A stretch of DNA of 64,000 nt from an uncultured Poribacteria bacterium (GTDB lineage Bacteria > Poribacteria > WGA-4E > PCPOR2b), in assembly GCA_958296125.1 (NCBI GenBank), contig OY282444.1:4497623-4561622 (forward strand), given 5' to 3'. The notes under the pieces were generated by a model. The model made no database searches. It was given only the letters and a program-made list of their open reading frames with translations, and was not told the origin of the DNA. Of this stretch, positions 47,619 to 55,791 are shown piece after piece (position 1 is the stretch's first letter; each line of letters begins with the position of its first letter). Made by a program: the position numbers and the translations under genes.

Positions 47619-48128
47619 GTGGAGCAGCCCATTCGGATCGAAGATGAAGTCCAATTTCTTGACCCCAAACTGGTGAAAATTAGCCGCAACCAGTTTGCAG
47701 ACATGGAAGCAGAGCTGCCAGATGGTTCAGTTCATGCGCCTGTTGAGCCGGTACGCACGTTTCCATTGACCCAACCGGACCAATATATCAGCTTGCTTGA
47801 CGCTAACAAAAACGAGCTTGGCTTGATTGAGGACATAAAGCAGTTGAGAAAAGCGGATCGGACAGTCCTTGCGGAAGAGCTAAAAAAATGCTATTTTATG
47901 CCGAAAATTACGAAGATTCACTCCCTTGAGGGACGGTTCGGCATCACGCAGTGGGAAGCTGAAACTAACAGCGGCTCCGTTTCTTTTGATCTACGCTCTC
48001 GGCATGACATCACCTCACTCGATGGCGGACGGCTGCTGATTAAAGATGTTGATGGGAATCGATACGAAATTGTCAACTATCATCGGCTAGATCCGAAGAG
48101 TGTAGCCCTCCTTGAAACACAGATCTGA
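47619..48128 (+). CDS. DUF1854 domain protein
   Basis: The 169-residue protein matches DUF1854 (for example LGLIEDIKQLRKADRTVLAE, KIHSLEGRFGITQWEAET and RSRHDITSLDGGRLLIKD). In other bacteria this family sits beside the same ABC type and cyanophycin genes. The GTG at 47619 is preferred because AAAGGAG lies 8 bases upstream; the GTG at 47601 precedes that site. A role together with the ABC protein is inferred from adjacency. Confidence 0.8.
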   Translation: MEQPIRIEDEVQFLDPKLVKISRNQFADMEAELPDGSVHAPVEPVRTFPLTQPDQYISLLDANKNELGLIEDIKQLRKADRTVLAEELKKCYFMPKITKIHSLEGRFGITQWEAETNSGSVSFDLRSRHDITSLDGGRLLIKDVDGNRYEIVNYHRLDPKSVALLETQI

Positions 48129-48190
48129 TGTGCAAAACGTGAAACGGAAAGGCGACCCACGTTTTACGTAAGGATTGCGTTAAACCCCCA

Positions 48191-48742
48191 ATGGATCGTG
48201 CGACACTTGCTCTCATTCTCAGTATCATCGCTGTCATACTTGCTGCCTCTAAATGGATCTATGACCTTCAGGCGGATCGCACCAGCAGGCGAATTCACGG
48301 TCAAAGGCGACGAGGAAGTGCTCTCAGAGTCGAGCTATTAGCAAAACAGACAAACTGTTTTATTACGTACGGCGGACATCTGTTGTTTCTCGTTTCGTGT
48401 CGCATCTATAATGAAGGGGATCAGGTCCCTGCTACAATTCAGGCGTGCCAGTTCCAGGCAAAAATTGGGCACAGGTGGCAAGATACGAAATTATACCAAA
48501 CACCTCACGCAATGCTCTTTCCGAGTTTACTCCGCAACAGTCTCCCTATCATCATCGAGCCGGAACAACGAGAGGACTTCTATGAAGTTTTTGCGATCGA
48601 TGAGTTGATTCCGAGCACCACGATTAAAATCTGCCTCAAGTTCCAAACTAGGCGTGGAAAGATAATAGTGTGTCGAGATAAATTTACCCATCGGGTTGAT
48701 GAGCACTCTGTTTTTGATATTCTGTTCCGTGTATTTGAATAA
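48191..48742 (+). CDS. Membrane-anchored protein of unknown function
   Basis: The 183-residue protein has one N-terminal membrane helix (about 5-22) and a basic segment just after it. The rest has a beta-rich pattern with RVELLAKQTNCFITYGGHLL. I do not recognise the family. The ATG lacks a strong ribosome site. It follows the DUF1854 gene after 62 bases that include an AAAACGTG/CACGTTTT inverted repeat. Confidence 0.6.
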   Translation: MDRATLALILSIIAVILAASKWIYDLQADRTSRRIHGQRRRGSALRVELLAKQTNCFITYGGHLLFLVSCRIYNEGDQVPATIQACQFQAKIGHRWQDTKLYQTPHAMLFPSLLRNSLPIIIEPEQREDFYEVFAIDELIPSTTIKICLKFQTRRGKIIVCRDKFTHRVDEHSVFDILFRVFE

Positions 48743-48929
48743 GGAAGATACCAGTACACGTCGGCGGAGTGGAACTATCTATTTGCATAAAAACTCGTGT
48801 GTTCGCTATACCTATTATTTAATACCTAACTCCAGTTGTTACCTTCTCGCCGAGTAGGTAATTTGAGTTGATTTCTCATTGGGTGACAATTTAGGTGCGT
48901 ACACAACAACAATATTTAAGGAGAAACTT

Positions 48930-50357
48930 ATGAATCGGAAAAAGCACGTTGCCATTTGGATAGGAATTTTATCGTTAACTTTCATCTTGGCAACTTATGG
49001 GCAGGTTGAGCAAACTGAAATCTCACAAGGTGCGGGGGAAATCGCACGTTTATACGGAAGAGCACCAGATTTGGAAGAACTAGCTTTGTGGAAAATGGGG
49101 CGTTCGGGATTTGGATTAACTTTCATTGATGGCGACCCGTTCTTGCGATTTCAGTTGCAGCCGGATATAGATCTCGGCAAAGTCGGATTTGGACTGGATG
49201 TTGTGATACTTTACAACCCCTCCGCCGACGAAGGAGAATACAAAATCCTCGCTGAAGATGGCGAAACATGGAACAATATAAGTACCATCCTGCGGGTCGT
49301 GCGCTATGTGCGTTATGGCTCTCTCAGTGAGTCGTTTTACGCCCGTTTCGGTGAGTTGGACTACGTCACTATCGGTCACGGGTTCATTATGTCGGGGTAT
49401 TCAAACTATGACCGCCGGGGCTTGCGCCTAAACCTCAGTACGGAAACAAAAAAGGTTGGGGTTGAAACAATCATTAACAACGTCGGTGCCCCAACCGTTT
49501 TCGGCGGACGGATGTTTGTTCGTCCCCTGCAAAAGGAGGAGGGCGGTATGCCAATCCTCAATAGTCTTGAACTCGGCGCAACCTATCTGACGGACATTGA
49601 ACCCAATCTGATTCCGGGTGAAGATTCGCTTATCGCATTGGGGGCCGATGTTAGTTTCCCGCTCATTAACAATCGGATACTGCGCCTAGACGTATACGAT
49701 GATGTGGCTTTCTTGAACACGAAACCGAGCTCGAAAGCAGATGAGGATGAGCTTGAGATAACCGATGTCGCAATAGGAAATGCTATCGGAATCGGTTTAT
49801 CGTTTCCCAAAGCCCTTTTCAAGGTGGAATACCGCAATTTTGGCGAAGGATTTCACCCAACCATTTTTGACTACACCTATGATGATGCCAAAGGTGTTCC
49901 CGACTTTCTCGGCATGGATGAAGAGGACGACCCAAGTCAGGCAAGACAAGGTTATTTCTCAATGCTCGCCGTGAGGCCGATTCCGCAAATCAATCTCATA
50001 GCGACGTTTGAAGACTATACAACCACAGATCCAAAGTTATACGCCGGCATCACGGAATCCGGTATAGCGGACCGGGTATCGTTCCGGGCATTCTACGTCA
50101 AACGCAACCTCGGCGAGCCAGATCCCGGTTTTCCAGAGAAAGCAGGCAGTGAAGATCCGGATGTTTTCACAGATATCTTCCGCCTCGATAGCAAATCCGC
50201 GTTCACCGTGCGAATTGGATATGAGATCTTTCCCAGGTTCGAGATTGCAATTCTCCGTGAATACCGTTTCCATCAGGTAGAAGATGCGGCGGGTGAGATA
50301 AGCTTTGAGCCAATTCAGAAAACCTCGGTTGAAGCCGGTTTCAGGCTCAATTTCTGA
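48930..50357 (+). CDS. Putative outer-membrane beta-barrel protein
   Basis: The 475-residue protein has an N-terminal signal peptide (MNRKKHVAIWIGILSL, then TFILATYG). Alternating strands follow, and it ends AGFRLNF with terminal Phe, as in outer-membrane barrels. Segments such as VRYVRYGSLSESFYARFGELD fit barrel strands. The family is not recognised. The ATG at 48930 follows AAGGAG at 6-base spacing. Confidence 0.7.
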   Translation: MNRKKHVAIWIGILSLTFILATYGQVEQTEISQGAGEIARLYGRAPDLEELALWKMGRSGFGLTFIDGDPFLRFQLQPDIDLGKVGFGLDVVILYNPSADEGEYKILAEDGETWNNISTILRVVRYVRYGSLSESFYARFGELDYVTIGHGFIMSGYSNYDRRGLRLNLSTETKKVGVETIINNVGAPTVFGGRMFVRPLQKEEGGMPILNSLELGATYLTDIEPNLIPGEDSLIALGADVSFPLINNRILRLDVYDDVAFLNTKPSSKADEDELEITDVAIGNAIGIGLSFPKALFKVEYRNFGEGFHPTIFDYTYDDAKGVPDFLGMDEEDDPSQARQGYFSMLAVRPIPQINLIATFEDYTTTDPKLYAGITESGIADRVSFRAFYVKRNLGEPDPGFPEKAGSEDPDVFTDIFRLDSKSAFTVRIGYEIFPRFEIAILREYRFHQVEDAAGEISFEPIQKTSVEAGFRLNF

Positions 50358-50370
50358 CGTGAGAAACCTC

Positions 50371-50403
50371 CGCCCCAAAACCCCAACGGGGCGACATGTG
50401 TAT
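50371..50403. repeat. Second dispersed repeat family, inverted copy
   Basis: Read on the minus strand this 33-base segment matches 13918-13950 with five differences; the shared core GCCCCGTTGGGG is identical in both. A nearby palindrome, GGTCAGGCA (50424-50432) with TGCCTGACC (50459-50467), encloses CCCGATAAATCGGG. Confidence 0.6.
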
Positions 50404-50542
50404 CGAAACGCACCACCCCTGTAGGTCAGGCATCCCCGATAAATCGGGATTTTCAACTTGCCTGACCCTCCCGCTCAATCCAATATCGGCAGGTAGCCTG
50501 TAGGTCCAGATTCATATCTCGATACCCAAATGTCAACAGAAA

Positions 50543-51640
50543 CTAGTCAATCTCCCGAAAGTCGGGCACTTCAACGGGTTTGCCGCCATTCGCAATCGAC
50601 TCCTCAGAAACCAGCCCCGGCACCGTGAAGTCCATAGCGTCATAGACATCAATTGGCGGTTTGGTGTCGTGAATGATGCTATCGACAAAACCCCGCATCT
50701 CAAAATACTCCTCGGTCACATCTCCTGTCTTCACTGCTTCCTCCGGCGGGTTCTTCCAGCTCTCTGGCAGAAAGTCGTCCTCAAAGTCTGCAAGCGGTTG
50801 CCACTCACCCTGTTGATGGTAATCTGCCAACCAAACTTTCTCCACATCCCTAAGTCCCCGCGTGCCTTCGTAACAACCTTTCGTCCCCTGCAAACTCAAG
50901 TATGAATTCGCCGGACGGTTGGAGAGCATATCAATCCGAATCTTAATCAGTGCCCCACTTTCGGTCTTACACAACATCATGACTGTGTCTTCCATCGCGT
51001 GCTCCGGGTCGGTATGCACCCCAGTCCCAAGACAACACACCGAAACGACCCGTTCATCAAACCAGTGCATCACCGGTCCCAAGCTATGCGTCGCATAGTT
51101 ACATCGGTTTATTCCGACCTGCCAATCGTATCGCCAAGTCGGATTGCCACTGCTGTCGTGATGCAACACTTTGATGTCATGGAGATATTCACCCTCGCCA
51201 AAGTAGATGTCTCCGAACAAGCCTTGACGAACCATGTTCCCGATCAGCATATTTGACCGCGTATAGCACTTGTTCTCAGCCATCATATATTTTGTTTTGC
51301 TCTTTCTCACTGCTCTGACCAACTCGTAGCACTGTTCAATAGAGGTTGCCGCTGTCACCTCGCTGACCACATGCTTTCCTGCCTCCAGTGCTGAAATAGA
51401 CTGCGGCACATGCAGATTTTCAGGTGTCCCCAACACGACGATATCAATATCATCCGCGAGCATATCTTCATAGGCTGTGAACCGTTTTGGGACACTAAAT
51501 CGCTCCCCGACCTCATGGAGAGTATCTTCATTCAGATCGCAAATTGCGGTCACCTCTGTTTCTGTAATGGTTGTGAAGGGACGGATATGCCCGGCTCCTC
51601 TGCCTGCTCCAACGATGCCAACTTTTAATCGATCCTTCAT
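50543..51640 (-). CDS. Gfo/Idh/MocA family oxidoreductase lacking the EKP lysine
   Basis: The 365-residue protein has the Rossmann motif GAGRGAGH and the family C-terminal domain. Where relatives have EKP it reads SEVTA (HVVSEVTAATS), so the catalytic Lys is missing. It may use another residue or have a non-oxidoreductase role. The C-terminal part keeps the usual HSLGPVMHWF segment. The ATG at 51640 has AAGGGAG upstream. Confidence 0.82.
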   Translation of the reverse strand: MKDRLKVGIVGAGRGAGHIRPFTTITETEVTAICDLNEDTLHEVGERFSVPKRFTAYEDMLADDIDIVVLGTPENLHVPQSISALEAGKHVVSEVTAATSIEQCYELVRAVRKSKTKYMMAENKCYTRSNMLIGNMVRQGLFGDIYFGEGEYLHDIKVLHHDSSGNPTWRYDWQVGINRCNYATHSLGPVMHWFDERVVSVCCLGTGVHTDPEHAMEDTVMMLCKTESGALIKIRIDMLSNRPANSYLSLQGTKGCYEGTRGLRDVEKVWLADYHQQGEWQPLADFEDDFLPESWKNPPEEAVKTGDVTEEYFEMRGFVDSIIHDTKPPIDVYDAMDFTVPGLVSEESIANGGKPVEVPDFREID

Positions 51641-53700: not shown

Positions 53701-54765
53701 TCACTTATAAAGAGTTGTTTCAGGATGATAGCGCGCCCAAGCAAACCAGTAGATATTCATCGCCGGCACTCGCTCTAGCGTGTATCCTTTGAGTTTGCCT
53801 TCCGCTGCCATCCCTGTGATAAGGTTCCACGTTGTTCCCGTTGTGGCATCTTTAACAAAGTAACCCTGCACTGGCTTAAACCTCAATGTTTGCCCTTTCA
53901 CAGCGCGGAGAAAAACGGCGGTCGCATTCGACTCCAAATCATGGAAAGCTAACACCGGCACGTCACCCACTTCGTCGTTGATAATTGATTGCTTCTTAAA
54001 AGCTGTAAAAGGATAAGCGCGATAGCTTTCATTGATGTGGATGCCAACAACTAGTGCTTTATTCATCAAGCGGTTATCGATATACTGTGTGCCGCTGATA
54101 CCTGCGTTGGAACTGGCATGATACGCGGCGTAGTTATCGGTTCTTATATCTTGAATTTGTCTCTCCGGGCGACGAAAATCATTTGGCACCGAGAGCACTT
54201 TTGTCAATGGATGGTTACGTTTCCAATCCTTCCATGTGATTCGCGGTGTACCGGCTAACATCTTTAACTGCTGCCCCTTGAGTTTACCTTGCACCGCTTC
54301 ACCGGTGATGTGCGACCAGAGAGTCCGGGTTTGGTGGTCATACATAAGTAGCGCATCGCGAAAGAGTTTGCCGGATACACCGAACGTGTAGATTTTTCCA
54401 TCAAGTTCACGACTATACACGATAGCCGTCTTGCAGAGCGGTCACCAAGTTGTCGCAATCTTGAGGCCGCCGATCTCATCGTTGACGATTTCGTGTCCAT
54501 TAAGCAGATTGATTGAATAGGCGCGGCTTTCACCGTTGAAATTAACGCCGATGACCGGTGAGTCAACCGCCAATTTTGCTTTGTTGGCAGAGACAAATTC
54601 AGGATTTAGGATTGCAGGAATCGCATCATACGGTAGGACTGTTAAGATGCGGTCATCTGAATAATCTCTTGCCGATGCTATCGCATTAACCTCTCCCGAA
54701 TATCGGGCACAACCGAACAGTGTGAACGCTGCTGTTGTCAGCAAGAGGATTAGATTTTTTTTCAT
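53701..54765 (-). CDS. DUF3179 lipoprotein, candidate selenoprotein (in-frame UGA)
   Basis: The single frame of 354 codons is interrupted only by UGA at 54442-54444 (codon 108). Both halves are DUF3179: LNGHEIVNDEIGGLKIATTW before it and PLCKTAIVYSRELDGKIYTF after. In the family a Cys stands here in a CPLC motif, so reading UGA as selenocysteine gives UPLC. A SECIS-like hairpin lies directly downstream. A lipoprotein signal ends TLFGC (Cys19), and AAAGGGGG precedes the ATG. The second DUF3179-like half (about 240-354) lacks the Cys pair. The alternative is a nonsense mutation or sequencing error. Confidence 0.75.
54409..54429 (-). promoter_or_regulatory. SECIS-like hairpin after the in-frame UGA
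   Basis: In the mRNA, ACGGCUAU pairs over 8 bp (one G-U) with AUAGUCGU around a 5-base loop CGUGU. It begins 12 bases after the UGA, so the loop is 20 bases downstream. Its G in the first two loop positions and the spacing fit the bacterial SECIS model (loop about 16-37 bases from UGA). Confidence 0.7.
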
Positions 54766-54930
54766 TTTTCCCCCTTTTAACTTTAGCTGTAGGTACACTT
54801 TCTGAGAACATTCTCAAAAGAGATGGGAAGGATTTCAAATTATTGTGTTCAGAAAAGTATACCATGCCGTTAGCAAGTATTCGTAATTTAACTCACGAAT
54901 TGTTCAAATTCTACCCGGAGGTACAGTGTT

Positions 54931-55791
54931 ATGATATATGGTTCAGGTAGCCACACCTATGAGGTGCAAGAAAATTGGGGCCAACTCCCCGAAGGTTGGA
55001 AATTTGGTTGGATCCCCGCAGTCGCGGTGGATTCACAAGACAGGATTTATGTTTACAGCCGAAGCGAACGGCCGCTGGTTGTGTTCGATCGCGAAGGTAA
55101 CTTCCTCGCATCGTGGGGGGAGGACATCCTCAAGGATTCGCACGGCATTTTTATCGATGCCGAGGATCACATCTATTGTGTTGAGCGAGAGGTGCATGTC
55201 ATGCACAAATTCACCTCTGACGGAGAGCTCCTGATGACGTTGGGGACCCCCGATCAGCCCGGTGCAGCGGGTGAACCTTTCAATTTGCCGACAGACCTCG
55301 CGCTCGGTCCTGATGGCGAGATATTTATCAGTGATGGATACGGCAACGCACGGATCCACAAATACTCCCCAGATGGTGAGTACATTATGTCTTGGGGAGC
55401 GCCGGGAACAGGTCCGGGCGAATTCGATCTACCGCACTGTGTTCGGGTAGACCGTCACAACCGTGTACTGGTCGCAGACCGGGTGAACAATCGCATCCAG
55501 TTTTTCACGCTTGATGGTGAATATATCGACGAGTGGGACGGATTCCTACATCCAGATACCATCTTTATTGATGACAACGATATTGTTTATGTCGCGGAGT
55601 TAGATCAGCGCGTCACGATTCTGACGCTTGATGGCGAGATTATTACCCAATGGGGTAGTGAGCGCGGCAGCACTGTGCCCGGCGAATTCTTCGCTTGTCC
55701 ACACGGTATCTGGGTGGATTCGCAGGGCGATCTCTATGTCAGCGAAGTGCAGGCGGATGGTCGCTTGCAGAAGTTTATCCGGCAAAAGTAA
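54931..55791 (+). CDS. NHL-repeat beta-propeller protein
   Basis: The 286-residue NHL propeller is a paralogue of the gene at 5245-6099, with the same opening (WGQLPEGW), repeat order and length. Repeats such as AVDSQDRIYVYSRSERP and ISDGYGNARIHKYSPDG fill the protein. There is no signal peptide. CGGAGG lies upstream of the ATG. Repeat copy D begins just after the stop codon. Confidence 0.8.
   Translation: MIYGSGSHTYEVQENWGQLPEGWKFGWIPAVAVDSQDRIYVYSRSERPLVVFDREGNFLASWGEDILKDSHGIFIDAEDHIYCVEREVHVMHKFTSDGELLMTLGTPDQPGAAGEPFNLPTDLALGPDGEIFISDGYGNARIHKYSPDGEYIMSWGAPGTGPGEFDLPHCVRVDRHNRVLVADRVNNRIQFFTLDGEYIDEWDGFLHPDTIFIDDNDIVYVAELDQRVTILTLDGEIITQWGSERGSTVPGEFFACPHGIWVDSQGDLYVSEVQADGRLQKFIRQK

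Follow-up and report, generated by a model that had tools for sequence, protein, structure and literature searches.

Comparative sequence evidence for a selenocysteine-encoding branch of the DUF3179 family in Poribacteria

The window analyzed here (the whole 64,000-nucleotide stretch of DNA under study) contains a minus-strand reading frame, 54765–53701, that is interrupted by a single UGA at 54444–54442, and the question raised by this locus is whether that codon ends a gene, marks a damaged one or is read as an amino acid. Translation with TGA rendered as U gives one internal UGA plus the terminal TGA, and the read-through protein matches DUF3179 (PF11376) across residues 47–350 (profile positions 2–292 of 292, E 1.1e-84), such that the domain runs on both sides of the UGA, as the first-pass annotation had described. 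At 284.8 bits against a curated cut-off of 27 this is a full-length family match, and the sole Pfam match of the protein; no NCBIfam model matches it, and a PDB sequence search returned no match. The UGA replaces the first Cys of the CPLC motif of the family, a position at which the homologues indeed carry Cys. Standard ORF calling cuts the gene into two products of 118 and 239 aa.

Table 1. Features of the Sec-DUF3179 locus, in window coordinates.
Feature	Position	Strand	Remark
Gene for the predicted Sec-containing DUF3179 protein	53701..54765	−	354 codons plus terminal TGA stop at 53703–53701
In-frame UGA, codon 108, predicted to be read as Sec	54442..54444	−	first position of U/C-P-L-C
Cys111, proposed UxxC partner of Sec108	54433..54435	−	
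Bacterial SECIS hairpin	54409..54429	−	8-bp stem with one G-U pair; CGUGU loop whose second base is G
Signal peptide with a candidate lipobox, LFG-C (Cys19), at its end	54709..54765	−	from sequence
Candidate ribosome-binding site AGGGGG	54770..54775	−	4 nt upstream of ATG; from sequence
Repeat 1, residues 46–192	54190..54630	−	with HEIVND and UPLC
Repeat 2, residues 236–354	53704..54060	−	homologous to repeat 1; without CPLC motif

The DUF3179 domain proves to be a duplication, its two repeats aligning at E 1e-32 with UPLC retained in repeat 1 only. Across 47 aligned sequences Pro55, Glu92, Asn95, Asp96, Sec/Cys108, Trp150, Gly160, and Pro348 are invariant (position 108 always being U or C), whereas Cys111 is lost once and His91 is missing twice. 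Apart from the lipobox Cys, the mature protein has no Sec or Cys other than Sec108 and Cys111. The lipobox residue is present here and in some close relatives, and missing from part of the orthologues; the protein of this genome is probably lipid-anchored.

The UGA codon is conserved. DUF3179 genes containing UGA occur in 69 of the 85 genomes of the phylum Poribacteria, with the codon present in every orthologue of this clade within the order; every internal stop within the Poribacteria DUF3179 matches is TGA, with neither TAA nor TAG found among them, and the other DUF3179 copies examined in the phylum have Cys at this codon. A wider genome collection shows this codon as UGA also in Chloroflexota, Acidobacteriota, Methylomirabilota, and Armatimonadota, and more distant homologues carry TGC or TGT there. 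The locus thus shows the signature of a selenoprotein gene, a single in-frame UGA where homologues have Cys, and no other sense codon was seen at the aligned CPLC position, close relatives having UGA and homologues Cys. In a quick tree of 99 proteins, built with residue 108 masked, the UGA and Cys proteins fall on opposite sides of one branch (SH-aLRT 98); because the sampling took a UGA-type query as its starting point, reversions to Cys elsewhere may have escaped it. In several orthologues from two genera of the order (g10 and g11; L171–L175, L186–L194) the DUF3179 match is broken into two pieces, and additional residues lie within the second half. A divergent UGA subgroup (L176, L177, L178) reads W-U-H-L-C instead of W-U-P-L-C and has a shorter stem after the codon.

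The hairpin that the first-pass annotation had drawn, 8 bp closed by a 5-nt loop with G as its second base and set 12 nt beyond the UGA, was recovered exactly. Downstream of the codon the order on the coding strand is CCGCTCTGCAAG (12 nt) followed by ACGGCTAT-CGTGT-ATAGTCGT at 54429–54409; as RNA, the element is ACGGCUAU-CGUGU-AUAGUCGU. Folded alone, the 50 nt from the UGA reach −12.2 kcal/mol (z −1.05), and since 34 of 200 shuffles were equally stable, the fold energy by itself is not beyond chance. Reshuffling the codons after the UGA among synonyms, with the amino acids kept, returned 8 pairs at the hairpin site in 96 of 100,000 draws. The inner 6-bp stem is fully paired at 58 of 63 distinct UGA loci versus 0 of 87 Cys loci. 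Across 20 sequences spanning phyla, stem covariation is 0.349, where shuffling gives a mean of 0.171 (none of 500 shuffles as high; slid controls ≤0.10), two of the stem pairs showing CG/GC and UA/CG exchanges in 7 and 8 sequences. Among 65 orthologues from the order, Thr113–Tyr117 are encoded by ACG GCT ATC GTG TAT with only two synonymous exceptions, and Ser replaces Thr113 in two rows; fourfold codons outside the hairpin have a mean heterozygosity of 0.58, and resampling gives p 5e-5 for the hairpin codons, which is the limit of the test. All aligned loci have G at loop position 2. It is these comparative data, much stronger than the fold energy, that settle the reality of the hairpin: a conserved, covarying stem-loop that follows the UGA directly and keeps the G of its apical loop, and whose covariation and synonymous constraint are, at the level of sequence, the marks of a selected RNA element overlaid on coding sequence.

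An Rfam SECIS_1 search returned no match in this genome, nor in any of the control genomes. A covariance model of the hairpin, run against its own genome, had the DUF3179 gene as its only convincing match (E 1e-15, the gene being in the training set); the other matches, at E 0.03 and weaker, accompany no plausible selenoprotein frame.

The machinery required to read such an element is complete. The host genome is a single 5.16-Mb Poribacteria contig, its nearest relatives bearing the name Candidatus Poribacteria, and selA, selB, selC, and selD, whose presence the first-pass annotation had left to be searched for, were all found in it. A selC–selB–selA cluster occupies genome positions 47917–51463, with selC (a tRNA-Sec with UCA anticodon, 76.6 bits) next to selB (370 bits, including the winged-helix domains of SelB); selA scores 601 bits. 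Among genomes with a UGA-form DUF3179, 64 of 69 have selA, versus 8 of 16 without the UGA form (Fisher p 2e-4, in a test that ignores relatedness); the five UGA-form genomes without a selA match are all draft assemblies, and one relative with Cys copies of DUF3179 only (G015) has no selA. The selD gene (locus L026; contig 1302552–1303472, plus strand) has its own in-frame UGA, within a CG-U-AAK motif that fits the UxxK motif of Sec-type SelD (PMC9312934), and a SECIS-like hairpin with loop AGUU follows this codon; selD is thus a second predicted selenoprotein gene in this genome.

Two readings would do without selenocysteine. If the UGA were a genuine stop, or an error of sequencing or assembly, the locus would be a pseudogene or split gene. 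In favour of this, UGA does serve as a stop in this genetic code, terminating this same gene, and the nearest relatives in the collections are represented by metagenome-assembled genomes; UGA nevertheless recurs at this codon in dozens of species from five phyla, each assembled separately, the remaining frame is open and conserved, selection acts on the synonymous sites of the hairpin codons, and selABCD are all in the genome, so that we give this reading a practically negligible probability. Alternatively, a standard amino acid such as Cys or Trp could be inserted at UGA, whether by code reassignment or by a UCA tRNA charged with Cys. Cys is the homologous residue in non-UGA members, and natural UGA-to-Cys tRNAs exist; against this, the DUF3179 gene itself terminates at UGA, the UCA tRNA found in the sel cluster is the tRNA-Sec, beside selA and selB, SelB-dependent decoding needs just such a conserved and covarying hairpin at SECIS distance, and Cys could be obtained directly from TGT or TGC. 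Decoding as a standard amino acid is accordingly very improbable. The reading that we prefer, UGA at codon 108 as selenocysteine, draws together selABCD, the conserved UGA/Cys site, a covarying and constrained hairpin confined to UGA forms, and the single supported branch; on comparative grounds we hold it to be nearly certain, and the proposal first made from this sequence stands in that respect.

On the selenocysteine reading, SelB carrying Sec-tRNA-Sec would bind the hairpin just 3′ of the UGA during translation and selenocysteine would be placed at residue 108. The protein would then be exported via its signal peptide (here probably to be lipid-anchored), after which Sec108-Pro-Leu-Cys111 could work as a selenenylsulfide/selenol redox centre of the thiol-disulfide type. 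Comparative sequence supports recoding as a selected trait, together with the hairpin and the machinery; we infer the Sec residue itself, the export and the redox chemistry, the last from Sec108 and Cys111 being the only candidates for such a pair in the mature protein besides the lipobox Cys. A redox use of the pair is likely, judged from these residues, and the explanation as a whole (an exported DUF3179 selenoprotein, with Sec108 placed via SelB and the hairpin, and a Sec–Cys redox centre) appears highly probable.

A third alternative accepts the insertion of Sec and questions its use: rather than forming a classical thiol-redox pair, Sec108, Cys111, and perhaps His91 would bind a metal or modified cluster within Rieske-like repeats, the second Rieske ligand motif C-P-x-H having turned into U/C-P-L-C. 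Both AlphaFold models have high confidence (pLDDT 91 and 96) and show DUF3179 as mostly beta; Rieske ferredoxins are the first Foldseek matches of the whole model, and NirD, a Rieske ferredoxin, and oxygenase domains those of repeat 1, with Foldseek probabilities for the Rieske-fold matches of up to 1.00 and 0.99. In addition, C-P-L resembles the second motif in this genome's own Rieske proteins and His91 stands 17 residues ahead of residue 108. Yet all Foldseek E-values exceed 0.03 and TM-scores are at most about 0.58, profile comparison with the Rieske domains of this genome detected no sequence relation (hhalign E 0.096, probability 0.6%), the Cys of the first Rieske motif is absent, and His91 is replaced in 2 of 19 aligned UGA members; membership of the Rieske domain (PF00355) calls for CxH...CxxH ligands and a sequence match, which the protein lacks. 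We therefore consider metal or cluster binding unlikely. The broader proposal, that DUF3179 selenoproteins are a tandem Rieske-like fold with Sec at a former iron–sulfur ligand position, is doubtful but somewhat less so, and the model-based Rieske likeness is best treated as a tentative lead, not a result. If true, it would place selenium, in a metal-binding or selenenylsulfide centre, within a Rieske-like fold, an arrangement of which we know no example.

Regarding gene context, no conserved partner gene is shared among the loci checked across the order. A divergent gene encoding an NHL-repeat (beta-propeller) protein lies upstream of the Sec-DUF3179 gene (window 54931–55791, plus strand), a neighbor seen within the genus only and absent beside the other loci checked. 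In one related Poribacteria genome ArsS directly follows the Sec-DUF3179 gene (L033:4080–5054; TIGR04167, 416.8 bits); ArsS is a radical SAM family, likewise named (seleno)protein by NCBI.

The first-pass annotation knew of no DUF3179 selenoprotein, a doubt that can be answered. Two reviews (PMC9312934, PMC13188914) count "DUF3179 domain-containing protein, pfam11376, UxxC/T" as a predicted selenoprotein of prokaryotes, the former crediting it to Zhang and Gladyshev 2007, from an Olavius algarvensis symbiont, and NCBI gives the product name "DUF3179 domain-containing (seleno)protein" in a haloarchaeal plasmid record; the selenocysteine claim is thus right, but of a kind already known. What we describe is a well-supported new branch of a known predicted selenoprotein family. 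We found no literature treating Poribacteria together with "selenoprotein" (single mentions of "selenocysteine" do co-occur with Poribacteria), so the lineage, the near-fixation and the multi-phylum spread are additions as far as the searched literature shows; nor, within the same limits, did we find an earlier report of the duplicated domain or of the tentative Rieske-like fold. Standard annotation risks splitting such genes into two false ones, which would hide an almost universal Poribacteria protein. The single Sec/Cys divide across five phyla in one selenoprotein subfamily offers a useful case for studying the retention of Sec, and concrete residues of interest (Sec108, Cys111, His91, Glu92, Asn95, and Asp96) emerge from the model and alignments.

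Set against known systems, the Rieske-fold proteins, including NirD, are the first fold matches of both models and have a C-P-x-x motif in a comparable place; DUF3179 differs in having no significant sequence relation to them, in missing the Cys of motif 1 and in the replacement of the motif 2 His by Cys. Bacterial UxxC selenoproteins (thioredoxin-like and others) share the UxxC Sec, a SECIS straight after the UGA and selABCD, whereas DUF3179 is mostly beta and duplicated, and finds its first fold matches among Rieske-like proteins instead of thioredoxin-like ones. The Cys-type DUF3179 proteins, which carry CPLC and occur widely among bacteria and haloarchaea, have the same domain with the HEIVND and CPLC signatures, but use a Cys codon, never have the full hairpin stem (0/87), sit on a separate side of the tree and in nearly all cases carry Tyr or Phe before the motif where the UGA form has Trp. 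A further comparison is with the known DUF3179 selenoprotein (PF11376, UxxC/T), made via the motif given in the reviews: the Pfam family is the same and Sec comes first in UxxC, here UPLC, but where that protein is credited to an Olavius algarvensis symbiont, the branch described here is almost fixed in Poribacteria and extends to four further phyla.
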